Assembly: GCA_021733925.1 (NCBI GenBank)
Contig: JAIPJY010000021.1
Span: 1 to 64,000, forward strand
Source: Prosthecobacter sp.
GTDB taxonomy: Bacteria > Verrucomicrobiota > Verrucomicrobiia > Verrucomicrobiales > Verrucomicrobiaceae
Reading direction: 5' to 3'
Length of the DNA: 64,000 bases
Part shown: positions 4,901-44,448 of the stretch, piece after piece
Position numbering within the stretch: position 1 is the stretch's first letter
Layout: every line of letters begins with the position of its first letter
Program-made: the position numbers and the translations under genes
The notes under the pieces: model-generated
Told to the model about the DNA's origin: nothing
Databases searched by the model: none
What the model saw: only the letters and a program-made list of their open reading frames with translations

Positions 4901-6395
4901 GCCCCTGCATCCCGCCCGGGCCTCGCATACCTCCTTGGCCCGGCATCGGCCGACCGGCGCCCGCGATTGCGCCCGGCTGCGGCTGCGGTGGTGGGACGAA
5001 AACAGACGGCCTCTTTTGCTTGAAAATTCGAGCCGCCATCTCCGGCTGCATCCCCGCCGCCACCGCCTTGGCAGCGGCCAGTTCCTCAGGGCTAGGCAGC
5101 CGTGGCACGTCCTCCTGCCCGGCCACCCCCTTCGCTCTCAGCTCCAGACGTCCCTCGCGCGTCGTCATCTCCACCAGAAACGGCGCCGCATGAAACACCA
5201 CCTGCCCCCCCTGCTGCGCCAGCTGCACCTGCACCAGCCGGTAAGTGCTGCCCTGCTCCCGCGGCAGGTTCATCGTAAAAAGCAGCATCCCACCCGCCCC
5301 AGGCTTGCAGTGGATCACCTCCTCACTCTGCGGGATCGCCGGCTGGTTGTTCTGCGGGTTCTTCACCATCGCCACCTCTGCCGACGGCACCGTCTGCACC
5401 GCCACCACATACTCCTTCACTTCCTGCTTCGGGTCCTCCAGCACCGCCTCTACCCCCACATTAAACGCCACTTCGTTGTACGCCCCCAGCGTCGTCGTGG
5501 AAAAGTGCACACTCTGCGGGATGCAGTACAGCCCAGCCACCTCCGCCACCGGCGGGACCGCAAACCCCTCAAACCGCCACTCCCCGCCCGCCGTGCTCAT
5601 CCCCGCGAAGCCCGCCAGCCGCCCATCACTCAGAAGCACCGGCCCCGCCGCCCCCGAGCGCGGCACCTCCGCTTTCGCCTCCGACAGCAACAGCCGTCCC
5701 TCCTTCAACTGCCCCGCACGCACAGTCACCGCGATCTTTCCCGGCAGAGCCGTCCCCATCCGTCCCCGGACAAGCGGCGTCGCTCCTCCCGACTGCGGCT
5801 GTTGCGGATCATAACTCGCCACCAGCAGCCCCACCCCATCAGTGCCCGCCGCCACATCCGCCACCGTACCCGCTGCCACCCCCGGCTCAAGCCGGTACGG
5901 AAAATCCTCTGTAAACTGCACCACCGCCGCATGCGTTTGCGCATTGAAATGCACCAGCGTCCCTTGTTGCAGCAGCACATAGGGCGACCCGTTTGCGTCA
6001 AACTTCTGGCGCAGCACCTTGATCACACACGCCTTGTCCTGCAGTTCCACTGCATCAAACCCCGGCAGCAGCACCGCCGCAAAGCGCCGCGTGCTTTCTG
6101 CCGTCACCGCCGTGCTCACCGCCGCCGCCCGTAGCACCACCCCCACATGCTCACGCTGTGGCACCGTCAGCGTGGACACCCGTACCACTACCGCCGCACT
6201 CTCCAGCTCCGGCGTCAGCACCAGCGCCGGTTTTGGCGGTGCCGATATCGCTGCGGCAGAAACCTCGGGTGCCGGTGTGGTCGGTGCCGGTGCCGCCAAA
6301 ACCTGCGGCGCAGGTGCTGACGCCTCATGGTCCGACTTACCACAACCCGCCAACCAAACCACGGCACCTAGATAAAATAAACGACGCACATTCAT
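1995..6395 (-). CDS. Giant lipoprotein (1466 aa), degenerate protease-like and propeller-like regions
   Basis: Starts MNVRRLFYLGAVVWLAGCGKS: lipobox LAGC with Cys18, so probably lipid-anchored. Residues about 25-57 are a Pro/Ala linker. Residues about 57-265 read like a trypsin-like fold that lost its catalytic serine: RSGAAGPVLLSDGRLAGFAG sits where active members have GxSGGP. Residues about 480-511 are a GPGGM repeat. Residues about 560-760 hold YNAGTLALEKTGRL-type strands suggestive of a beta-propeller. The C-terminus (about 1385-1460) has an Ig/cadherin-like pattern (EGRTLDYQLTLSNPTAL). No known family was recognised with certainty; the fold assignments are inference. It is a tandem duplicate of the gene at the left edge. 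Upstream boxes are shared between the two, so they may be co-regulated. Confidence 0.85.
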   Translation of the reverse strand: MNVRRLFYLGAVVWLAGCGKSDHEASAPAPQVLAAPAPTTPAPEVSAAAISAPPKPALVLTPELESAAVVVRVSTLTVPQREHVGVVLRAAAVSTAVTAESTRRFAAVLLPGFDAVELQDKACVIKVLRQKFDANGSPYVLLQQGTLVHFNAQTHAAVVQFTEDFPYRLEPGVAAGTVADVAAGTDGVGLLVASYDPQQPQSGGATPLVRGRMGTALPGKIAVTVRAGQLKEGRLLLSEAKAEVPRSGAAGPVLLSDGRLAGFAGMSTAGGEWRFEGFAVPPVAEVAGLYCIPQSVHFSTTTLGAYNEVAFNVGVEAVLEDPKQEVKEYVVAVQTVPSAEVAMVKNPQNNQPAIPQSEEVIHCKPGAGGMLLFTMNLPREQGSTYRLVQVQLAQQGGQVVFHAAPFLVEMTTREGRLELRAKGVAGQEDVPRLPSPEELAAAKAVAAGMQPEMAARIFKQKRPSVFVPPPQPQPGAIAGAGRPMPGQGGMRGPGGMQGPGGMRGPGGMQGPGAIDPRAPVAAGAAPGGEIKLSPAVREMMARRREEQANELREPEAAAAVAESGRVELTTESRILYGAALCEGREVLFKLEGAPHWKRLSLASGKWLPLPAEDLSGCHLAGNKEALFVLDPAQGEIRRYNAGTLALEKTGRLPEGRVYRGLAAGCLSDDAPLAVISDDGVLACDPEELTAGKYAALKVKETLQLKDQFYYLATGDGSVVYARPYGRWTDTNLPCFEYRGVLSGYVTENVYESQQVLPTVGGLCTWDGSKGVHHPGMTAKAGFQMPPNSGRGPLANSPNYFVVTQGMGRPMRGAGMVGGTGLLMCSFYSYYSLVPWATVAVPEAGGVPVAEWRSFAERVWLDAEALTLAVWHEGQKITLHTVDRANLPAPVTPVLLNYPDCHVQRGGSFRFTPQMLGAGVQVATAQAPEGCTTAADGTLNWQVPLVGQTPMVGFEMRLAGAGTAAGADTGANAGALPPTKCTFDVILHLGGMQPVLAVAVPPKAEAPSGRRVREPSAAEQKKSMEEALASAVRSHTALPLNSRYYISESAIDRVVPGLTDYLALRMQDKSLALFSVRDWKVMGSHAIADTDQVFLAGDAVLLYSTITRLLTRHALPDFKVTHRFQTPGQARLAALGVGNQPTGPVTLLLEKGGTPQVNAVGQPISPGDGVLILDKQTLTPTKWAPYTPVADPYWLVGITSTLQNLALPVQLRTSNDGRLVQMHQEQKKLVISPGLTTGFDRQAIISDSAQPEFDGVLTAGSSLLWANRSSRKYGDEHGRFPSSCGNFFSCPRSEAGMTGIRLYSADDGRPLLDLACVELFDFNDRADVVGVSRQRQVQALGEKNLLTILSRGGNVLQVAHLDVSVACRAVAPLAAYVTSHPFPVVMEGRTLDYQLTLSNPTALSSCDLVEKIPGATMSSQGHFTYRAPNGLLKSQQVNVSVQIRLRNGEVAQHKFPIYVLALGGKKK
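4861..4932 (-). repeat. 36-bp tandem repeat coding for GPGGM units
   Basis: Two nearly identical 36-base units (4861-4896 and 4897-4932, one mismatch) plus a degenerate partial unit to about 4950. Each unit is two 18-base halves coding for GPGGMQ and GPGGMR. It forms a flexible Gly/Pro hinge in the lipoprotein and is likely to vary in copy number by slippage. Confidence 0.85.
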
Positions 6396-6454
6396 AAAAA
6401 GAGAAAAAATAAGAGAGGCCCGACTGACAGCCCGGTCGCACCATTGAATCGTAA

Positions 6455-6492
6455 TTTCTACGGCATTTCTCCTCCGGAGGACCAGTGCAAAA
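6455..6492 (-). promoter_or_regulatory. Conserved upstream element of the 1466-aa lipoprotein gene
   Basis: Blocks tttctacggcatt (6455-6467) and ccagtgcaaaa (6482-6492) match the element upstream of the paralogous gene at identical spacing. They lie 60-97 bases upstream of the start codon at 6395. Confidence 0.45.
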
Positions 6493-6596
6493 GAATGCCG
6501 AGGATGAATAAAGTGTTACACTACAAAACCAGCGCCACAATGCCCGCATGGTCTGCTTGATACGCATGCAGGACTTTTCGCATGAAAAAATGCAGG

Positions 6597-6634
6597 CTCG
6601 ATGATGGCAGCAGGCCACCATCGAGTTCTTTTTT
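6597..6634 (+). terminator. Orphan intrinsic terminator
   Basis: ctcgatgatgg (6597-6607), loop cagcagg, ccaccatcgag (6615-6625; one A-C mismatch in 11 bp), then ttctttttt. It reads on the plus strand, but no plus-strand gene precedes it in the intergenic region, so it may end a small RNA or stop antisense transcription. Confidence 0.65.
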
Positions 6635-7019
6635 AGCCATCCCTGAATCTTCTCGAAGATGCCAGCATTTGCTGAACTGAAAGTTCAAGCGCCGCCTTTG
6701 CCCAAATTTTTTTAATGTCTGAAAAATTCCATGACATAACGATGATCGCGGAGGGGAATGTTTGAGGATCCCATCCGATTAATGTGTTTGTAAGGTCAGC
6801 GCAGGGCGGATGTAATGGCGCAGATGCTTATAAGGGTCCCACCCGGTGTCTGCCATGCTCCATTGGCAGGCAGCCCGTATGCCGCCGTTCCTTGAATTAT
6901 AACCTCGACTTTTAAGGGCCGTTTTGATTTCATTAACCAAGGTTCTCAGCCCGCTGTCCATCCTGCCTCGATATCATGCGTCGGGATATGCACACAACCC
7001 AGAACCGATTTTTGGCACC

Positions 7020-18859: not shown

Positions 18860-18999
18860 TCCAAGTGCATTCTCCCAATATCCGGGTGACGCTGCAAGCC
18901 ATTATCGCCAGAGCGGCCCCTGACAGTCTTGCCCGGCAGGCGCTCATCAGCAGGCAGATCGGGGAGCTGGAGCAATGCCAGCGCAGGACCTTAAGCATC

Positions 19000-19036
19000 G
19001 GGGCCGGATGCGCATGCTGCGTGTCCGGCCCCTTTT
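19000..19036 (+). promoter_or_regulatory. Hairpin leader, copy of the one at 43207
   Basis: ggggccggatgcgca, a 3-base loop and the complementary arm, ending at 19032 and followed by tttt, then cattccagaaaggaacac and the ATG at 19061. The same hairpin and leader precede the intact DUF932 gene at 43268 with the same 61-base spacing. It could be a terminator or a leader regulating translation. Confidence 0.7.
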
Positions 19037-19060
19037 CATTCCAGAAAGGAACACATCATC

Positions 19061-19318
19061 ATGATTGCCAATCTCGCTCCCCAACCGCAACTCATCCAGC
19101 GCCGCAGCCCGAAGCTCACTCTTCATTGCGGCGCCTCGCATGTCGAACTCGACGAAGTCCGCGCCGTCGCCACGCCGCGCCACACGCAGAGCTGGTGTCC
19201 CATCCCGCATGCGGAACTCATCAGCACCGTCCAGCGCACCCTGCGCCAGATCCAATACAAGCTACATGCCGGTGAAGCAGGCTGGCTACTGAAAGTGGAC
19301 AAGGCCGTCGAGTTCTGA
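19061..19318 (+). pseudogene. Truncated 5' copy of the DUF932 gene
   Basis: The first 61 codons (MIANLAPQPQLIQRRSPKLT..., through STVQRTL) match the intact DUF932 protein encoded at 43268 almost exactly. At about 19243 similarity stops and an unrelated 24-codon tail follows to a stop at 19318. The leader hairpin upstream is also copied. The remaining three quarters of the family (the intact copy has 258 aa) are missing, so it is a fragment left by a recombination or deletion of island DNA 24 kb away. Confidence 0.8.
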
Positions 19319-19513
19319 CTCGCCCCCCCACTTGGCCTCGAGTTCAAACGTGACTCGGTGGGCGGGAAGGAAGTCTTTATCGTCGCCCATTCGCCAGGCG
19401 ATGGCAGCGGGACCAGTCGCGGAGGTCTTGAGAACGAGCTTCGCAGTGACGGGGGCAGCGATGGAGCATCGCCGCCACTCAGATGAGGCTTCTTTCCATT
19501 CGCAGCCAAGATC
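19286..19513 (-). pseudogene. Remnant of a protein C-terminus, possibly sulfatase-like
   Basis: Directly after the stop of the acetyltransferase gene an open minus-strand frame reads LGCEWKEASSEW, TAKLVLKTSATGPAAIAWRM and FLPAHRVTFELEAKWGG, ending with TAG at 19286-19288. The pattern resembles the beta-rich tails found on many Verrucomicrobia sulfatases, but it has no start codon and no upstream body. It abuts the truncated DUF932 copy. Weak, by eye only. Confidence 0.3.
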
Positions 19514-37559: not shown

Positions 37560-37774
37560 CAGGCAGAATTAACACGCACAATTGTACCCGTCGGGTGCGG
37601 TAGGTAGCTCTAGTCATGTGTTCGGAGCTTCCAACCTCAACACGCATTCGCTGCGCAGGTCCGCTGACCTCCCGGCATGTTTGCCTCAATGACGCTGAAT
37701 GCTCTGAAGCATAGGGGGTGTAAACGATTCATGAGCGCACGCCAGCGAACATGTCGAAACCCACAAGGAAGGAA

Positions 37775-37819
37775 CTAAGGATCAGAAGGTTTCAGGTTCG
37801 AATCCTGACGGGTGCGCCA
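37775..37819 (+). tRNA. 3' fragment of a tRNA gene (T-arm, acceptor strand and CCA); probable attachment-site remnant
   Basis: tcagg-ttcgaat-cctga (T-stem and loop) is followed by cgggtgc (3' acceptor strand), discriminator g, and cca at 37817-37819. Upstream, ctaaggatcag resembles the 3' side of an anticodon loop and stem. The matching 5' half (acceptor gcacccg) is absent in the 200 bases upstream, so the gene is not intact. The acceptor strand cgggtgc is typical of Arg tRNAs, but the region between the T-arm and the break does not fit a normal variable loop, so the isotype is uncertain. Such 3' ends are left when integrases insert DNA into tRNA genes. Confidence 0.65.
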
Positions 37820-38241
37820 CTCATTATCAATGAGTTATGATGAGGTGCTTCTTTCAAGCTTTTGAGTGCGTGTGCACTTTGTGTGCACTTTTCAAGGTGG
37901 AGTGAATTCGTGCGTGACCTCATGCAATTTTACACGCATCCGCGTTATAAGGATTTGAGAGGCCGGGTTTACCCCTGCCATTTTCATCTACCCACATGCC
38001 CCGGCGAACCCATTATTCGCCCTGCATCAACCGGGTCATCGTCTGCGCGTTGTATCATGAAGGCCGGCGGCTACGCCGCCCCATGACGCGTCTGGTTAAC
38101 GATCTGCTCACATCATCCCTGCAACACACGCAGGGATGGAGCATCGCAGCCACGCAGATGAGCGTCCCGGCTCAGGGCCGCATTCAGGAGGCTGGCACCA
38201 CACGCTAGCCGCACCACGTCGTCACAGCATCCACTTCATCC

Positions 38242-38277
38242 ACCCGGTTCTCTCGCAAGAGGGACCGGGTGTTTTGT
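38242..38277 (+). other. Hairpin ahead of the first island gene
   Basis: acccggttctctc (38242-38254), loop gcaa, gagggaccgggt (38259-38270): 12 bp with one bulged T, then gttttgttg. It lies 76 bases upstream of the first island start codon. It could terminate transcription coming from upstream or act as a leader. Confidence 0.6.
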
Positions 38278-38346
38278 TGTCGGGCCATGTGACGGCTTTC
38301 TTCATCCACCCAAGCACACCCACCCCACATCAGGAGACACACCACC

Positions 38347-38877
38347 ATGGCCATCAAACTCAGCGCCAACTACAGCAAAAAACTCGGCCTGCCCCAATAC
38401 AGCAGCCACAGCTTCAGCGCCTCCGTTGAAGTCGAGCTCAGTGACATCACCCAGGTCGAAGCCGAAGTGCAGAAGCTTTACCAGCTGCTGCAGCACTCCG
38501 TCGATCAGGAAATCCAGCACCCCGGTTACGTCCCGACGTCCAATGCCAACGGCAACGGCAACGGGCATGCAGCGCCACAAACAAATGGGCGCACCTACCC
38601 GGTTAACGGCAACAATCGTTCGGCTCCACCGCTCGTCACGGATCGCTGGAACTGCACCGACGGCCAGCGCGGGTTCATCCTGCGCATCGTCAACGAAAAC
38701 CCCAGCATCACCAAACAGGTGGCTGAGGATCTGTCCCAGCAGCTCTTCGGCATCGGCGTCAAGCAGCTCAACAAGATGCAGGCCTCTCAGTTGATTGAGG
38801 ACCTGCTCGTCAAAGCCGGTAAACCCGCGCCACGCCAGACCCGCTGGCAGCAACAACCAGCCGCCCAAGCCGCATGA
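38347..38877 (+). CDS. Island protein 1: 176-aa protein of unknown function with helical C-terminal tail
   Basis: Three parts are visible: an N-terminal domain of about 65 residues (SANYSKKLGLPQYSSHSFSA, then VEAEVQKLYQLLQHSVDQEI), a low-complexity Asn/Gly linker (about 65-100, with NANGNGNGHAAP), and a helical C-terminus (about 105-160: TDGQRGFILRIVNENPSITK, FGIGVKQLNKMQASQLIEDL). The tail resembles the small helical module found at the end of some phage recombination and annealing proteins; that is a by-eye guess. A Shine-Dalgarno aggag lies 12 bases before the ATG. It overlaps the nuclease gene by four bases (ATGA), so the two proteins are probably partners. Confidence 0.85.
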   Translation: MAIKLSANYSKKLGLPQYSSHSFSASVEVELSDITQVEAEVQKLYQLLQHSVDQEIQHPGYVPTSNANGNGNGHAAPQTNGRTYPVNGNNRSAPPLVTDRWNCTDGQRGFILRIVNENPSITKQVAEDLSQQLFGIGVKQLNKMQASQLIEDLLVKAGKPAPRQTRWQQQPAAQAA

Positions 38878-39686
38878 ACACACCCGCTGCCTCACCAGGA
38901 GAGCGCAGCGAGCAGGACATTATCACCGCATTGCAGGCAACAGTGTCAGCTTCACGGCTGTCGCTGTTCCTGCAATGCCGGTTGAAGTTCTACTTCCGCT
39001 ACGTGCTCAAGCTCAAGAAGCCCAAAACAGCCTCGCTCCATCTCGGCAATGCGGTTCACGCCGTGTTGAAAGCCTGGAACAAGGCACGCTGGGTCCAGCA
39101 ACCGCTCTCGCTCAAGGTGGTCCATGAGACCTACCAAACAACCTGGGCGGACAACACCGAAGGATCGGTGGAATGGGAACCCGGGGAGGAAGAGGCCGAC
39201 AAAACGACAGGCTGGCGTCTGCTCGACACCTACCTGCGCGAAAGCCATCTTCCCGCTGAGGTCAAACCCGACGCCGTGGAAGTCCCGGTGGATGCCGATC
39301 TGCAACAGAATGGGCTGCCCCGGCTGATCGGCATTCTCGATCTGGTGCAGCAACGCCAGATCATCGACTACAAGACCAGCGCCACGACCCCCAACGCGGA
39401 CAAGGTCGCACACTCCACTGAGATCCAGACCAGCAGCTACGCCATCCTGTACCGGCACAACACCGGCTCGCAGGAAACAGGCATGCAGCTACACCACCTA
39501 GTCAAACTCAAGAACCCCAAGGTGGTCATCACCTCGCTGCCTCCCATGAGCCCACCGCAGCAAACGCGGCTGTTCCGGCAAATGGAAGCCTACCTCGAAG
39601 GATTGCAGCGTCGCGACTTCATCCCTTCGCCTGGGATGCACTGTTCAAGCTGCGAGTACTTCAACGAATGCAAACGCTGGCATTAA
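38874..39686 (+). CDS. Island protein 2: PD-(D/E)XK nuclease, Cas4/RecB-like with Fe-S cluster cysteines
   Basis: 270 aa. The N-terminus has SASRLSLFLQC (Cys35) and SLHLGNAVHAVLKAW with His62. The active site follows as IGILDL (Asp156) and IIDYKTS (Asp165, Lys167), with E/Q in EIQTSSYAILY. The C-terminal motif HCSSCEYFNEC supplies Cys257, Cys260 and Cys266. One Cys before and three after the nuclease core is the arrangement that binds a 4Fe-4S cluster in Cas4 and AddB-type exonucleases. The family processes DNA ends. No CRISPR or Cas genes are near. The gene overlaps island protein 1, suggesting a nuclease-plus-accessory pair. Confidence 0.9.
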   Translation: MNTPAASPGERSEQDIITALQATVSASRLSLFLQCRLKFYFRYVLKLKKPKTASLHLGNAVHAVLKAWNKARWVQQPLSLKVVHETYQTTWADNTEGSVEWEPGEEEADKTTGWRLLDTYLRESHLPAEVKPDAVEVPVDADLQQNGLPRLIGILDLVQQRQIIDYKTSATTPNADKVAHSTEIQTSSYAILYRHNTGSQETGMQLHHLVKLKNPKVVITSLPPMSPPQQTRLFRQMEAYLEGLQRRDFIPSPGMHCSSCEYFNECKRWH

Positions 39687-39692
39687 ACCCTG

Positions 39693-39729
39693 CTGCAGGT
39701 CGGCGCTCACCACGAGCGCCGGCCTGCAG
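39693..39729 (+). other. Intercistronic hairpin
   Basis: ctgcaggtcggcgctc (39693-39708), loop accac, gagcgccggcctgcag (39714-39729): a 16-bp stem with one G-T pair. No T-run follows. It separates the nuclease gene from the small membrane protein gene. Confidence 0.65.
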
Positions 39730-39747
39730 CCCATCCCCATACCCACA

Positions 39748-40131
39748 ATGAAACATCTAATCCTCATCGCGGGCCTGTTGATGCTGTTCACGCCGAACAC
39801 GCACGCAGGCTGGTTCTTCGATGATCCACCGCCCCCACCGCCGGACCTCGGTCCGGAATACCGCTCGAAGATCTCCAAACTCGAAGAGCAAATGTCGGAA
39901 CAGCACGTCATCGCCGACCGCTGGAAGATTGCCACCGGCAGTCTCGCGTGCGGTGCCCTTCTGTTGTTTGTCATCGGAACCGCCCTCGGGGCCAAAACAC
40001 GCCAACATTATGATGGAACAACCCGAATGGGACGAACAGTCCCCACCACCACCCCGCCAGCTCCCAACGGTGCCCGCCACCACATGGGCGAAGCAGGTCC
40101 ACCAGATCGTCATCCGACGATGGCAGCCTGA
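39748..40131 (+). CDS. Island protein 3: small exported/membrane protein
   Basis: 127 aa. Signal peptide (MKHLILIAGLLMLFTPNTHA), a run of Pro residues, a short coiled coil (about 40-60: RSKISKLEEQMSEQHVIADR), a transmembrane helix (about 63-82: TGSLACGALLLFVIGTALGA) and a Pro/Ala-rich tail. Its last 40 codons overlap the start of the next gene in another frame. No known family. The membrane topology suggests a small inner-membrane protein working with the next gene. Confidence 0.75.
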   Translation: MKHLILIAGLLMLFTPNTHAGWFFDDPPPPPPDLGPEYRSKISKLEEQMSEQHVIADRWKIATGSLACGALLLFVIGTALGAKTRQHYDGTTRMGRTVPTTTPPAPNGARHHMGEAGPPDRHPTMAA

Positions 40132-40522
40132 ACCGCTCAGCGAACCTGTCGTTGACCACGACCTGCCAAACCTGAGCGCCATTGAGCGTTCGGCCGAGGT
40201 CGTCAGCTTCACCTGCCGCCGGTTTGAATACTGGATCTCACCGCAGGGCATCCTGCGGGAGTGGTTCAAGTTCAACCTGCGCCTCGCTCTCGGACTTGCG
40301 GTGCCCGCCGTACTGGTGGCACCGCTAGTCACGCTGGCCCTGCAGCAGTTCAACGTCTGGATCGACCTCATCACGCGGACCACCTCCAACATGGTGCTCG
40401 TCCCGCTCTCGGCCATGCTGGTCATCGGCCTCATCTGCGGGCTGATTTCCATCGGGAAATCAATCCTAACGATGCGCATGCGCCAGCAGCACCAACGCCG
40501 CGATCAGTACAACAACTACTGA
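40010..40522 (+). CDS. Island protein 4: two-helix membrane protein
   Basis: A frame is open from 39821 but the first part overlaps the preceding gene; ATG ATG at 40010-40015 gives a 170-aa protein. It has a Pro-rich cytoplasmic N-terminus (EQSPPPPRQLPTVPATTWAK), a soluble stretch with YWISPQGILREWFKFN, and two transmembrane helices near the C-terminus (ALGLAVPAVLVAPLVTLALQ and MVLVPLSAMLVIGLICGLIS), followed by a short basic tail. No family recognised. The overlap with island protein 3 suggests tight coupling. Confidence 0.75.
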   Translation: MMEQPEWDEQSPPPPRQLPTVPATTWAKQVHQIVIRRWQPEPLSEPVVDHDLPNLSAIERSAEVVSFTCRRFEYWISPQGILREWFKFNLRLALGLAVPAVLVAPLVTLALQQFNVWIDLITRTTSNMVLVPLSAMLVIGLICGLISIGKSILTMRMRQQHQRRDQYNNY

Positions 40523-40550
40523 CGCGGTTCGCACCCACCTAACCAAACCC

Positions 40551-40586
40551 AAGAGCCGGATGATCGCAGGATCGTCCGGCTCTTTT
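40551..40586 (+). terminator. Strong intercistronic hairpin with T-run
   Basis: aagagccggatgatc (40551-40565), loop gcag, gatcgtccggctctt (40570-40584): 15 bp including one G-T, running straight into tttt. It is a good intrinsic terminator for the small membrane genes and also starts the leader (ctcttttcatttcaagaaaggacac) that precedes the ligase gene. The same leader form recurs at 43207 and 19000. Confidence 0.75.
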
Positions 40587-40611
40587 CATTTCAAGAAAGG
40601 ACACTCACCTC

Positions 40612-41682
40612 ATGGAAAGCATCACCCTGTACTTTCGCTCAGGTCCCTCTGACAAAGTGTATCAGGCCAGCATCCGTCCCAAGGATGCCGGGTATCTTGT
40701 ACACTTCGCCTATGGCCGGCGCGGCTCCACGCTCAGCACCGGCAGCAAAACACCGGTGCCAGTCGAATACCCTGTTGCCAAAGACATCTACGACAGGCTC
40801 GTTCGTGAAAAGATGGCGAAGGGCTACACGCCCGGAACCGACACGGGCACCACCCCGCCACCGGATTCCCCCGGCCAGCACAGCGGCATCCAGTGCCAGC
40901 TCCTCAATCCCATCAACGAACAACAGCTCGATCAGTTCCTGTTCAATCCCGACTACTGGATGCAGGAGAAGCTCGACGGCCGCCGCCTGCTCATCCGAAA
41001 GGACGGTGACCAGATCACCGGCATCAACCGCCTGGGATTCCCCACAGCCGTCCCTGACGGGATCGCAAGCAACGCGGCAAAATATCCGCGCAGCTTCCTG
41101 CTCGACGGTGAAGCTGTTGGAGACACCCTCCACGCATTCGACCTGCTCACCATCGGACCGGAGGACATGCGTCATCTGGCATTCTCGGTGCGCTACCTGA
41201 GGATGCGCGACATGCTCAACGCCTTCGATCATCCCCATATCCAGGAGGTGCGGGTATTCTTCCCTCCTCAAACGGCTGGATGGTTCCAGCAGTTCAAAAG
41301 AGAGGGAAGGGAAGGCATTGTGTTCAAACACAAGGACGCGCCGTACACTCCCGGCCGTCCCAACAGCGGTGGCAGCCAGCTCAAGTACAAGTTCCATGAA
41401 ACCGCTTCTTTCATCGTCACGAAGGTGAACGATAAGCGGAGCGTTTCATTGATCCTGTTCGAGGGCGACAAAGTACGCCCTGCTGGCAACGTCACCATCC
41501 CACCCAATCACGATGTTCCTGTACCGGGAACCGTGGTGGAGTGCCGTTATCTGTACGCGTTCAAGGAATCCGGCAGCATCTACCAGCCGGTTTACCTGGG
41601 TGCTCGTGCGGACATTCGGGCGGCTGAATGCACCACAGCTCAGCTCAAGTACAAAGCCGAGGAGACACTGGCCGCCGCCTAG
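40612..41682 (+). CDS. Island protein 5: WGR domain fused to ATP-dependent DNA ligase-like domain
   Basis: 356 aa. Residues about 1-75 (SITLYFRSGPSDKVYQAS, HFAYGRRGSTLSTGSKT) are a WGR domain, a nucleic-acid-binding module. Residues about 105-350 are an ATP-dependent DNA ligase/nucleotidyltransferase core. Motif I is EKLDGRRLLI (nucleophile Lys near residue 120), the motif III region is FLLDGEAVG, then FDLLTIGPEDM, motif IV is EGIVFKHKDAPYTPGR, and motif V is LKYKF. The OB-fold is short (about 60 residues). Such minimal ligases seal nicks in phage and plasmid DNA metabolism. The gene has its own hairpin leader. Confidence 0.92.
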   Translation: MESITLYFRSGPSDKVYQASIRPKDAGYLVHFAYGRRGSTLSTGSKTPVPVEYPVAKDIYDRLVREKMAKGYTPGTDTGTTPPPDSPGQHSGIQCQLLNPINEQQLDQFLFNPDYWMQEKLDGRRLLIRKDGDQITGINRLGFPTAVPDGIASNAAKYPRSFLLDGEAVGDTLHAFDLLTIGPEDMRHLAFSVRYLRMRDMLNAFDHPHIQEVRVFFPPQTAGWFQQFKREGREGIVFKHKDAPYTPGRPNSGGSQLKYKFHETASFIVTKVNDKRSVSLILFEGDKVRPAGNVTIPPNHDVPVPGTVVECRYLYAFKESGSIYQPVYLGARADIRAAECTTAQLKYKAEETLAAA

Positions 41683-41701
41683 CCAGTTCAATCACGCTCG
41701 G

Positions 41702-41736
41702 AGCCGATGCGCTGTACACCGGTGCATGGGCTTTTT
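41702..41736 (+). terminator. Hairpin with T-run before the clamp gene
   Basis: agccgatgc (41702-41710) pairs with gcatgggct (41724-41732) with one G-G mismatch, over a 13-base loop, then ttttt. It sits between the ligase stop (41682) and the clamp start (41761). It may end the ligase transcript or form part of the leader of the clamp gene. Confidence 0.5.
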
Positions 41737-41760
41737 GGCGTACAACCCACCACCAACACA

Positions 41761-43188
41761 ATGAATCCCATCACACTCCCCATTGCGGAATTAAAACCCG
41801 CTCTGGCAGGACTTGGCAAAGTGATCAATCCACGAGCCACCCTGCCTGTCCTGCATCATGTCAAAGTCGAACGTACTGCAGACGGTTGGATAGCCCTCAC
41901 CGGCACCGACCTGGACCGCTTCGTTACCATGCGTCTCGAACATCCCGCTGAAGGCCCTCCCATGGCTGCCCTCATCCCGTATGATCAGCTTGTACAAGTC
42001 ACCAAAAACTGTGGCAAAGACGAGCGCATTCATATTGAACCTGGCTGCATCAAGTTTGCCCTGGCTGACAGCTTAGGTGAACAAAAGGTGAAGAACATCC
42101 CCGTTGAGGAGTTTCCCGTCACTCCCCGCATTAAAACGGAGGCCATCGCGCTGCCGCCAGAACTTCGCCGGTCCATCCACGAAGCCATGGAATGCGCCAG
42201 TGTGGACGCCACTCGTTACGTCCTCAACGGCACCTTCATCGACACCAGCAATCCCAAGGCCAACTACGTTGTCGGTACGGATGGCAGGCATCTGTACAGC
42301 GCAAATTCGTTCACACTGCCCCTCAAGAACTCCGTCATCATCCCGAATCACAAGTTTCTGGGGTGGAAGGAGTTCAATGCGGATGGCGAATGGCAGATGA
42401 AGGTCGATGACAAAGCGGTGCAGCTCTCCAGCAGGCGTTGGAGATTCGTCAGCAAGCAGATCGACGGGAACTATCCCAACTGGCGGCAAACCATCCCCAA
42501 CCCCGACGACGCCAGGACCCACATCATGCTCGACCCGGCAAAATTGGAGACGCTCATCAAGCTGATCCAGCGCATGCCTTGTCACGATGCGGAGAAGTTC
42601 CAGACCATCGGCCTGGAATGCAAAGAGGGGCAATTGCTGCTCCTCGGCAAAGACAATGGCAACGAGCCTTGGACGCGAGTCCCTGTGCTCGATGCCAAAG
42701 CGGAAGGCCCGGAAGCTTTGATCTTCCTGAGCCGACGCTTCCTCATCAAGGCCCTTGATTACGGTCTCACTACCATCAGCATCATCGATCAAATCGCCCC
42801 CCTGCGTTTTCACAACAAGGGCAGGCAGATGATCGTGATGCCACTGCGGCCTGATGGAGCCAGCACCCCGCCCTCAGCAAATCCACAACCCGCTCCGGTG
42901 AACATGCCTCCATCCCGGCCTGTTTCACCACCAGCACCACCACCCAAACCCATGATCACAAATCCCACCTCTGAAGGACCAACACCAGCATCCAACGACC
43001 AGAAAACACCAGCGGAAGAAGCCATCGACATGACCTTGCTCATTCGTGACAAGCTTAACGATGGATTCAACCTGCTGCGTGATCTGTCCGTGAAACTCAA
43101 AACTATCAATCGCGACCAGAAGGCCAGCGCCCGCGAAATGCAGTCTGTGCGATCCACGCTCAGGTCCATCCAAGGCCTGAAGATCTGA
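41761..43188 (+). CDS. Island protein 6: DNA polymerase III beta subunit (sliding clamp) homologue with C-terminal extension
   Basis: 475 aa. MNPITLPIAELKPALAGLGK and LPVLHHVKV begin the first clamp domain; FIDTSNPKANYVVGTDGRHL and NSVIIPNHKFLGWKEF the second; ALDYGLTTISIIDQIAPLRF and IVMPLRP the third, ending near residue 365 as a normal clamp does. A Pro-rich linker (about 370-420, PPAPPPKP) and a coiled-coil tail (about 425-475: DKLNDGFNLLRDLSVKLK) follow. No other DnaN is in the window, so this is probably an accessory clamp of the island. It may recruit the ligase or a polymerase to element DNA. Confidence 0.92.
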   Translation: MNPITLPIAELKPALAGLGKVINPRATLPVLHHVKVERTADGWIALTGTDLDRFVTMRLEHPAEGPPMAALIPYDQLVQVTKNCGKDERIHIEPGCIKFALADSLGEQKVKNIPVEEFPVTPRIKTEAIALPPELRRSIHEAMECASVDATRYVLNGTFIDTSNPKANYVVGTDGRHLYSANSFTLPLKNSVIIPNHKFLGWKEFNADGEWQMKVDDKAVQLSSRRWRFVSKQIDGNYPNWRQTIPNPDDARTHIMLDPAKLETLIKLIQRMPCHDAEKFQTIGLECKEGQLLLLGKDNGNEPWTRVPVLDAKAEGPEALIFLSRRFLIKALDYGLTTISIIDQIAPLRFHNKGRQMIVMPLRPDGASTPPSANPQPAPVNMPPSRPVSPPAPPPKPMITNPTSEGPTPASNDQKTPAEEAIDMTLLIRDKLNDGFNLLRDLSVKLKTINRDQKASAREMQSVRSTLRSIQGLKI

Positions 43189-43206
43189 GCCCACCCATAT
43201 CAACCC

Positions 43207-43243
43207 GGGGCCGGATGCGCAGGCTGCGTATCCGGCCCCTTTT
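43207..43243 (+). terminator. Strong hairpin with T-run ahead of the DUF932 gene
   Basis: ggggccggat (43207-43216) pairs with atccggcccc (43230-43239); the stem extends inward through gcgca/tgcgt (one G-T) to a 3-base loop. tttt follows. It is copied, with the leader and the first 61 codons, at 19000. Confidence 0.75.
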
Positions 43244-43267
43244 CATTCCAGAAAGGAACACATCATT

Positions 43268-44044
43268 ATGATTGCCAATCTCGATCCCCAACCGCAACTC
43301 ATCCAGCGCCGCAGCCCGAACCTCGTGCTGCACTGCGGAGCCTCCCATGTCGAACTCGACGAAGTCCGCGCCGTCGCCACGCCGCGCCACACGCAGAGTT
43401 GGTGTCCTATCCCTCACGCGGAACTCATCAGCACCGTCCAGCGCACGCTGGCCAGCACCAACCTGCGCATCGGCGCGCAAGCTCATTCGTTGTCCCACGA
43501 GGGACAGCGCTACTTCGGTCTGATGGAAGTTCATGTCCAGAAATCCAGCGACGACTACTGCTGGGTTCTCGGGCTGCGTAATAGTCACGACAAGACATTC
43601 CCTGCCGGCATCGTCGCCGGGGCCAGCGTCTTCGTTTGTGACAACTTGTCGTTCTCCGGCGAGATCAAATTCGCGCGCAAACACACGCGGTTCATTGTGC
43701 GCGATCTGCCACAATTGGTCAGTCGCTCCATCGGTCTCCTGCTCGCCAAATGGCATGATCAGGACAAACGCATCGCTGCCTACAAAGAAGCCGAGATCAC
43801 CGACATCGAAGCTCACGATCTCGTTATCCGCGCCACGGATGTCGGGGTCTGTTCCAATCGTTTGATCCCACCTGTGCTGCATGAGTGGCGCGAGCCACGG
43901 CATGATGCTTTCGAGGGGCGGAACGTGTGGAGCTTGTTCAACGCGTTCACTGAGTCCCTGAAGGAAGGCAACCTCGCTGAACTTCCGAAGCGCACCGAGG
44001 CACTGCATGGCCTGCTCGACACGCATGTCGGTTTGGCGGCGTGA
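43268..44044 (+). CDS. Island protein 7: DUF932-family protein
   Basis: 258 aa, cytoplasmic. VELDEVRAVATPRHTQSWCP, AHSLSHEGQRYFGLMEVH, WVLGLRNSHDKTFPAGIV, VFVCDNLSFSGEIKFARKHT and AYKEAEITDIEAHDLVIR match the DUF932 family, which is common on plasmids, phages and integrated elements and whose activity is not defined. It closes the island gene set. A 5' fragment of a close copy lies at 19061. The downstream hairpin at 44055 ends the transcript. Confidence 0.88.
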   Translation: MIANLDPQPQLIQRRSPNLVLHCGASHVELDEVRAVATPRHTQSWCPIPHAELISTVQRTLASTNLRIGAQAHSLSHEGQRYFGLMEVHVQKSSDDYCWVLGLRNSHDKTFPAGIVAGASVFVCDNLSFSGEIKFARKHTRFIVRDLPQLVSRSIGLLLAKWHDQDKRIAAYKEAEITDIEAHDLVIRATDVGVCSNRLIPPVLHEWREPRHDAFEGRNVWSLFNAFTESLKEGNLAELPKRTEALHGLLDTHVGLAA

Positions 44045-44054
44045 AAGATGAGCC

Positions 44055-44091
44055 CCCGCGTCGGCCCGCAGCCGGCGCGGGTTTGGCTTTT
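44055..44091 (+). terminator. Intrinsic terminator at the end of the island genes
   Basis: cccgcgtcggc (44055-44065), loop ccgca, gccggcgcggg (44071-44081; one G-T pair), then tttggctttt. It is located 11 bases after the DUF932 stop. Confidence 0.8.
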
Positions 44092-44100
44092 CGTTAGCTA

Positions 44101-44391
44101 TCAGTTAGAGTGATACCCAGAAGACACAATTCTGTCAGGCGCAAAGGCCCTACAGGTCTCCAATGCCTTTCGGCTGGGTGGGCTTTGGTGCCTTGAGGCG
44201 ATGGCGTTGAAGGCGAATCGGACGAGGGTGAACTCGCGGACATCGTTCAGGTAGGCCCGCCGCGTGTTCGCGTTTTCAATGTTCGCGAACCACTCGACCT
44301 CCGGCGGCACATTCGCCAAATTCTGAAACTCTGATGCCGTCAGCAAACGCTCGTTCGTTTCGACCACCAACCCTGAAGAACCATTAACCAT
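44101..44391 (-). pseudogene. Truncated tyrosine integrase (N-terminal core-binding region)
   Basis: The 96-aa frame starts MVNGSSGLVVETNERLLTAS and contains NVPPEVEWFANIENANTRRA and YLNDVREFTLVRF. This is the SAM-like core-binding start of PVC-phylum tyrosine recombinases (NTRRAYxNDxREF). After about residue 55 the family pattern stops, and the catalytic domain (Arg, HxxR, Tyr) is missing. It reads toward the island, whose last gene ends 56 bases away, so the integrase was cut off by the event that built or reduced the island. Confidence 0.7.
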
Positions 44392-44418
44392 TCCAACTCC
44401 CTCACCCTGAGATGATTA

Positions 44419-44448
44419 TAGTAGTGATAAAATACATTATCAATACTA
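44419..44448. promoter_or_regulatory. Dyad element upstream of the integrase fragment
   Basis: tagt-ag-tgataa-aataca-ttatca-at-acta is a symmetric 30-base inverted repeat in an AT-rich pocket (44392-44540) that contrasts with the GC-rich surroundings. It lies 28 bases upstream of the integrase fragment. Its decamer cattatcaat also occurs just after the tRNA fragment (37821-37830). It may be an operator or integrase-binding site. Confidence 0.55.

Follow-up and report, generated by a model that had tools for sequence, protein, structure and literature searches.

A conserved gene module of Verrucomicrobiota integrative islands with a possible Red-like role in island recombination

We describe a module of eight genes, g0 to g7, in a 64,000-nucleotide stretch of Prosthecobacter sp. 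DNA (the window; positions 1 to 64,000 of contig JAIPJY010000021.1, assembly GCA_021733925.1, called C15 below and part of a 7.3-Mb genome in 127 contigs). We regard the module as a hitherto uncharacterised core of integrative islands; many islands that bear it are located at tRNA 3' ends, and anti-phage systems occur in several of them. Whether this conserved core of Verrucomicrobiota islands serves island recombination through Red-like resection, annealing, fill-in and sealing is, in our judgement, an evenly balanced question. To our knowledge, the acquisition and shuffling of defence-island cargo are poorly known beyond a few elements. If our reading holds, a multi-copy "resect, anneal, fill, seal" core would provide a testable engine for defence-cargo shuffling, a marker for unannotated Verrucomicrobiota islands, those of 2.9-3.5 Mb genomes included, and possibly a new annealase/exonuclease pair for recombineering. 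The literature search listings held no paper about this module.

Gene content and conservation

The eight genes span 37996-44044, and every frame is intact (ORF, open reading frame; TM, transmembrane):

37996..38208, plus strand: g0, a conserved 70-aa protein (ORF cluster of 36 loci)
38347..38877, plus strand: g1, 176 aa, predicted beta-hairpin/helix domain, disordered linker and three-helix domain
38874..39686, plus strand: g2, predicted PDDEXK exonuclease of Cas4/AddB-like type, four Cys conserved (profile matches and invariant residues)
39748..40131, plus strand: g3, putative signal/TM protein with a coiled coil, read from its sequence
40010..40522, plus strand: g4, putative membrane protein with two TM segments, read likewise
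40612..41682, plus strand: g5, WGR domain and ATP-dependent DNA ligase (profile matches; KxDGxR at K120)
41761..43188, plus strand: g6, sliding-clamp homologue distinct from the host DnaN, with a long Pro-rich C-terminal tail
43268..44044, plus strand: g7, DUF932 protein (Pfam match)

An earlier sequence-only reading had listed seven co-directional ORFs here; all seven are real and intact, and the count was short by one, since g0 lies upstream of them. A Pfam search gave no match for g0, which from its guessed fold is probably a ribbon-helix-helix regulator. The clamp g6 probably starts at 41761 (475 aa), since its relatives open with MNPI or MTPI. The membrane-type ORFs g3 and g4 overlap.

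The recurrence of this gene set was established through the clamp. Screening 288 genomes from the order told island clamps from host DnaN and gave matches at E <= 1e-30 in 48 genomes, 25 of them in the genus (hand count). We compared 41 loci (L005 and L029-L068), comprising 39 found by the clamp in 27 other genomes, one own-genome locus found by the ligase, and the window; gene presence was scored by tblastn (E <= 1e-2), and the ORF maps of relatives were drawn with a home-made ORF caller. The near relatives that bear names are Verrucomicrobia metagenome-assembled genomes (MAGs). Among the 41 loci, g0 was present in 40, g1 in 40, the nuclease in 38, g3 in 24, g4 in 34, the ligase in 28, DUF932 in 31 and the clamp in 40, the last by construction because the clamp anchored the choice of loci. 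The recurrent order is g0-g1-nuclease-(g3-g4)-(ligase)-clamp-(DUF932) with few swaps: the ligase stands ahead of g4 in L051-L053 and DUF932 ahead of g4 in L062. Family f3 (L056-L063, eight loci) lacks the ligase and, save for L062, DUF932 as well, while L053 and L064 are interrupted by contig ends and the ligases of L066 and L068 are truncated. Across the 41 loci, the kept gene order far exceeds chance.

The sequence-only reading had asked whether these genes co-occur in other Verrucomicrobia or belong to a known phage genome. Beyond the own genome, 27 genomes carry them in order, and neither 50,697 phage records (E 1e-3) nor 72,556 plasmid records contain a match to g1, for which we reject a phage or plasmid genome. 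A self-contained island of one MAG is excluded by the recurrence across 41 loci and by the clamp survey. The same data bear on the idea of an ordinary host double-strand-break repair cassette that lies near tRNAs by chance. Nuclease and ligase content would suit such a cassette, but the distribution is patchy (48/288 genomes), there are several and also decayed copies per genome, the context is that of islands, and the clamp survey contradicts vertical inheritance at one locus; we regard this explanation as highly improbable.

As a check independent of the clamp, a g1 profile was searched against 387 genomes of the phylum, and 58 were positive. At 23 of 30 phylum loci (one locus per genome), the nuclease is the next gene after g1. 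Of 20 wider stretches around g1, one of them from the own genome, 11 contain DUF932, 4 the clamp and 2 the ligase. Because of these anchor-free counts, we treat the eight-gene order as a trait of the window's family and g1-nuclease as the constant heart of the module phylum-wide. This pair is also its most widely travelled part, since it occurs on one viral contig besides those 23 loci. In IMG/VR, one contig carries g1-g2 and ten carry a DUF932 relative; none of these contigs has more of the module, except for a weak g0 match in L131. A scan of genome contigs returned five close relatives only.

Predicted functions of the encoded proteins

The sequence-only reading had named a Cas4/RecB-like nuclease, a WGR-DNA ligase, a beta-clamp homologue and a DUF932 protein, and profile searches bear out all four. 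The nuclease g2 matches PDDEXK_1 at 5.7e-31 and Cas4 profiles more weakly; it shares the PDDEXK fold and four conserved Cys with Cas4, but scores 33 bits against the NCBIfam cas4 cut-off of 65 (no search for neighbouring CRISPR arrays was made). Residues D156, D165-x-K167, C35, C257, C260 and C266 are invariant in 21 sequences, a pattern that we take to be that of Cas4/AddB iron-sulphur nucleases, and g2 is predicted to be a PDDEXK exonuclease with its catalytic residues in place. The ligase g5 matches DNA_ligase_A_M at 4.3e-11, and its WGR domain matches PADLOC WGR_XIII at 7.9e-24, though the Pfam match is only 0.003 and under the cut-off. KxDGxR, with the motif I lysine K120, is found in 27 of 28 ligases, the exception being a 163-aa fragment in L066, and three further ligase patterns are found in 24-26 of the 28 sequences. 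In PARP2, WGR domains join 5'-phosphorylated ends (PMC8190142). The clamp g6 matches dnaN at 1.6e-25 and phrog_947 at 7.6e-27, and lies beneath the dnaN equivalog cut-off (89.8 vs 137.65 bits). For g7, the DUF932 match is 5.4e-8; its structure model has no PDB match at E 1e-3, and none of the literature titles and abstract openings on DUF932 gives a function.

The protein g1, formerly described as having a helical tail, is instead predicted to fold as a beta-hairpin and helix, a disordered linker and a three-helix C-terminal domain (AlphaFold: strands 3-13 and 21-31; helix 34-56; helices 105-117, 123-134 and 143-156). Foldseek matches were all weak, and among the best 50 of 61 the top three probabilities belong to chains of the Red-beta C-terminal domain (CTD), with a TM-score by target of 0.63-0.68 between the g1 C-terminal domain and the Red-beta CTD structures 8tfu/8tg7. 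That CTD forms a bundle of three helices and binds lambda Exo (PMC9512822). The resemblance, together with an exonuclease as the next gene, is suggestive rather than proof, and makes g1 a candidate annealing or exonuclease-partner protein. The module is not classed as a Red system because g1 failed the test for known annealase families.

The clamp and ligase are replication proteins and could point to another function, namely that an excised circle is copied by the host polymerase with its own clamp, ligase and nuclease, much as plasmid or satellite replication genes would do. Plasmid WGR-ligases lend this idea some weight: one stands beside ParB and one, on plasmid p1 of Dyella sp. BiH032 (L134), adjoins PRTRC genes. 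However, the core has no initiator, helicase or primase; a primase-like gene, recognised by eye, occurs in one neighbouring element, where no core module was found. We consider a replication module improbable. The WGR and ligase architecture is shared by 17 plasmid records covering at least 80%, at 32-47% identity, and the neighbours in the three ligase regions viewed differ from the module genes. The one DUF932 plasmid region viewed has a Dna2/Cas4-domain gene on the opposite strand, at a distance of about 10 kb.

Mosaic histories of the module genes

Gene copies within the module have different histories. Compared with the window, L031 is 95% identical in g1 and the nuclease and 68% in DUF932, and L029 is 84% identical in the clamp, 66% in the nuclease and 49% in g4. 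The nuclease tree unites the window, L031 and L065 (support 96/80), a clade that the DUF932 data reject (lnL difference 231, p-AU 7e-7). The group of the window, L029, L031 and L065 is rejected by the nuclease data (p-AU 4e-5) and, contrary to expectation, by the clamp data too (p 0.0043). The groups for these approximately unbiased (AU) tests were picked after the identities had been seen, and the p values are indicative. The alignments held 34/40 g1 proteins, 24/31 DUF932 proteins, 26/39 clamps and 21/37 nucleases after proteins with internal stops had been excluded, and the trees had 27-28 rows. Because the gene trees within the module conflict, we conclude that genes have been exchanged between copies.

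Insertion context and borders

The borders of the window copy comprise the following features:

37676..37835, plus strand: left border, a tRNA-Arg 3' half with what remains of the integrase-side end of another element
37775..37840, plus strand: tRNA-Arg 3' fragment and attachment-core-like CTCATTATCAATGAGTTA, as judged from the letters
37869..37892, plus strand: 24-bp repeat, candidate integrase arm site, with an identical copy at C15:95506 beside an integrase
37942..37959, plus strand: promoter-like GCGTTATAAGGATTTGAG upstream of g0, with variants at many loci by eye, without statistics
44054..44099, plus strand: terminator-like hairpin, T-rich run and TTAGCT boundary motif, where similarity between most copies stops
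44104..44391, minus strand: N-terminal fragment of a 331-aa tyrosine integrase

ARAGORN found 12 tRNA genes in the 41 loci, all 12 upstream of the module on the same strand, seven at less than 300 bp from g0 and five at 2.5-4.9 kb. Four further modules (L085, L113, L117 and L118) also follow an intact tRNA, and two of these soon end at contig ends. In 8 of the 12 tRNA-linked loci, GAGTTA starts no more than about 31 bp from where the tRNA ends at its 3' side (by eye). The tRNA 3' fragment that the sequence-only reading had placed at the left border is from tRNA-Arg, and an intact copy of the junction exists on contig C18 of the own genome: positions 37774-37988, the tRNA-Arg 3' fragment and what follows, recur there at 96% identity, preceded by a complete tRNA-Arg(acg); after them come g0-g3 and the first part of g4, with 94% DNA identity until the contig ends. 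An Rfam match (E 0.082, under the gathering score) was regarded as chance.

Integrases were surveyed in 12 hand-chosen genomes with 25 modules, of which 21 were evaluable and four were excluded for a contig end within 10 kb. A PF00589 match lies within 40 kb downstream in 10 of the 21, always on the opposite strand, and is lacking in the other 11; upstream, 5 of the 25 modules have a match above the cut-off within 40 kb. The truncated integrase proposed for the right border of the window was likewise recovered: its N-terminal 60 aa are 91-95% identical to the 331-aa frame of four relatives, in two of which that frame matches Phage_integrase, and the fragment by itself gave no integrase match in Pfam. 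Beyond the hairpin, T-rich run and TTAGCT, the sequence is unrelated between most copies. At 21 of 30 loci, TTAGCT occurs no more than 160 nt from the g7 stop, compared with 158 of 8,200 windows taken at random; in L038 and L040, it is farther out, inside the 420-nt flanks.

Only the contig of the window showed a direct repeat pair, at 37.8 and 95.7 kb. Positions 37676..37835 are 87% identical to C15:95,560-95,719, which adjoins a 476-aa integrase and forms the attachment end of a neighbouring element. A single 58-kb element from 37.8 to 95.7 kb is disfavoured by host-like genes at 44.5-65.8 kb (by eye) and by the tandem-type left border, and two elements or remnants, though not proven, are more likely. 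The second island, C15:66,600-95,700 (L082, L083), has type I restriction-modification (RM) and primase/helicase-like genes and the 476-aa integrase, and has a tRNA-Arg half-site in common with the first. A search for empty sites gave flank matches in other genomes and, with no check for joined pairs, showed no empty site.

MobP relaxase (PF03432) was found in none of eight genomes and TrwC in two of eight, never inside islands; other relaxase families were not searched. Because neither tested family was found in the islands, the module is not classed as an integrative and conjugative element.

Defence genes near the module

Of 20 cargo proteins selected for their defence-like appearance, with no control islands, 18 match PADLOC models at 1e-5, and 7 of 8 module-bearing loci have at least one defence match among these preselected proteins:

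G072: type III RM pair and helicase
G049: CBASS cyclase, 2TM effector and Lamassu-like ATPase
G326: DISARM DrmD-like protein and DrmMII/type II methylase
G400: type III methyltransferase
G021: IetA
G112: TIR
Neighbouring element on the window's own contig: type I RM

The module itself may be anti-phage, in which case nuclease, clamp and ligase would hit phage replication or broken DNA, g3/g4 would be a membrane effector, and the module would be in islands because defence genes are. Nearby defence genes, a patchy and multi-copy distribution, and the PADLOC matches of the ligase N-terminal part (WGR_XIII and HEAT-ARM_XIII) speak for it, and some effectors have overlapping membrane genes. However, a PADLOC scan of g1-g7 and the integrase fragment found no complete system, the other matches in g1-g7 being Cas4 profiles only (g0 was not scanned); the module persists while the sequence past its end varies between copies, and the viral contig holds g1-g2 alone. 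We consider a direct anti-phage function unlikely, if worth keeping in view. Nothing here favours the anti-degradation role that the sequence-only reading had also raised. Its idea of a repair or recombination module fits the gene content, but "self-contained" does not hold, as several relatives embed the module in a longer stretch that also has defence genes and, downstream, an integrase.

Proposed mechanism and comparison with known systems

Under the recombination reading that we prefer, g0 would repress the operon, and induction might follow excision, replication-fork collapse or the arrival of a homologous island. The exonuclease g2 would then resect 5' ends, and g1 would load onto the single-stranded DNA and dock g2 by its three-helix domain. 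We envisage that g1 would anneal this strand to a homologous one, for instance in lagging-strand gaps at a fork, that the dedicated clamp would recruit the host polymerase to fill the patch, and that the WGR-ligase, drawn to 5'-phosphate ends, would seal it. The result would be circularisation or repair of the island and exchange of segments among islands. In favour of this reading are the gene order kept in 41 loci, the wide spread of the g1-g2 pair, the likeness of the g1 C-terminal domain to the Red-beta CTD, the tRNA and integrase context, the defence genes close by, the mosaic gene histories and the precedent of SXT/R391. A more specific proposal makes the module a cargo-exchange engine, in which RecA-independent annealing into gaps would copy or splice defence cassettes from one island to another, the module's clamp and ligase would complete the joint, and the TTAGCT boundary behind DUF932 would serve as a docking point for cargo swaps; we hold this to be rather doubtful.

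Several observations weigh against the recombination reading. Mosaicism could be made by RecA. The g1 model is moderate (pLDDT 68), its resemblance to the Red-beta CTD is slight (E 2-5, probability 0.35-0.47), and g1 shows no sequence match to a known annealase, with no Pfam or NCBIfam match and a PHROG match of only 0.24; moreover, g2 is Cas4/AddB-like and not lambda-Exo. The ligase is missing in 13 and DUF932 in 10 of the 41 loci, a few through contig ends. As for the island context, the fetched stretch has no tRNA in 29 of the 41 loci, all six evaluable modules beside a tRNA have no integrase within 40 kb downstream or to the contig end, the ten integrase-bearing loci have no tRNA in the fetched 4-7 kb upstream (the fetched flanks cover all but G093:C24), and tRNA and integrase ends occur together at no locus. 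In 12 other loci, the stretches fetched contained no tRNA-type attR repeat of at least 13 bp. The tRNA-linked modules, the window's included, may be cores left stranded; alternatively, the modules with a tRNA and those with an integrase may belong to different islands.

Known systems offer partial parallels. In SXT/R391, bet/exo orthologues promote hybrid elements, also without RecA (PMC2786100). By analogy, the module plausibly works likewise, with an exonuclease of another family, a partner whose annealing is unproven and two finishing enzymes in addition. Like s065/s066 (bet/exo) of SXT/R391 and IncA/C, it places an exonuclease and a candidate annealing partner on a mosaic integrative element; in contrast to them, its exonuclease is Cas4/AddB-like, its partner is no recognisable Bet, clamp, WGR-ligase, DUF932 and membrane pair are added, and the islands have neither of the two tested relaxase families. 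With lambda Red/RecET it has in common an exonuclease adjoining a small protein with a Red-beta-CTD-like three-helix domain (a weak match), whereas its annealase domain family is unmatched, and ligase and clamp are extra. Escherichia coli CP4-type tRNA islands carry YfjQ/YafZ (DUF932) and RadC, and thus resemble the islands described here in tRNA site, DUF932 and variable cargo, with a RadC-like gene in the relative L183 (by eye); we know of no clamp-ligase-nuclease set in them.

Further copies and variants

The own genome holds additional pieces on C9, C67, C109 and C113 and at window positions 18999-19249, some decayed and some at contig ends. The pieces at 18999-19249 and 19455-19487 are module fragments, a clamp-DUF932 junction and a g0-end piece. 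On C67 (L086, 2325-2828), a deletion scar joins an attachment end and g0 almost directly to the clamp tail; the integrase next to it shares 93% identity with the one at C15:94 kb. On C9 (L068), an integrase-like frame at 5728-6942 is 36% identical to the 476-aa integrase, and a tRNA-Tyr 3' fragment and g0 follow right behind it from 7426 on, resembling a tandem junction. L030 and L039 have an inverted right-boundary motif (AGCTAAAGAAAAG) upstream of g0, as if an oppositely oriented second module had been lost. A variant in L049, L056, L059 and L176 has extra genes behind the clamp or nuclease, presumably DUF3150-like, DUF1257-like and an AAA ATPase, not all at each locus. In L030, L039, L045 and L067, an additional conserved gene, peptidase-like by eye, follows DUF932 before other sequence begins.

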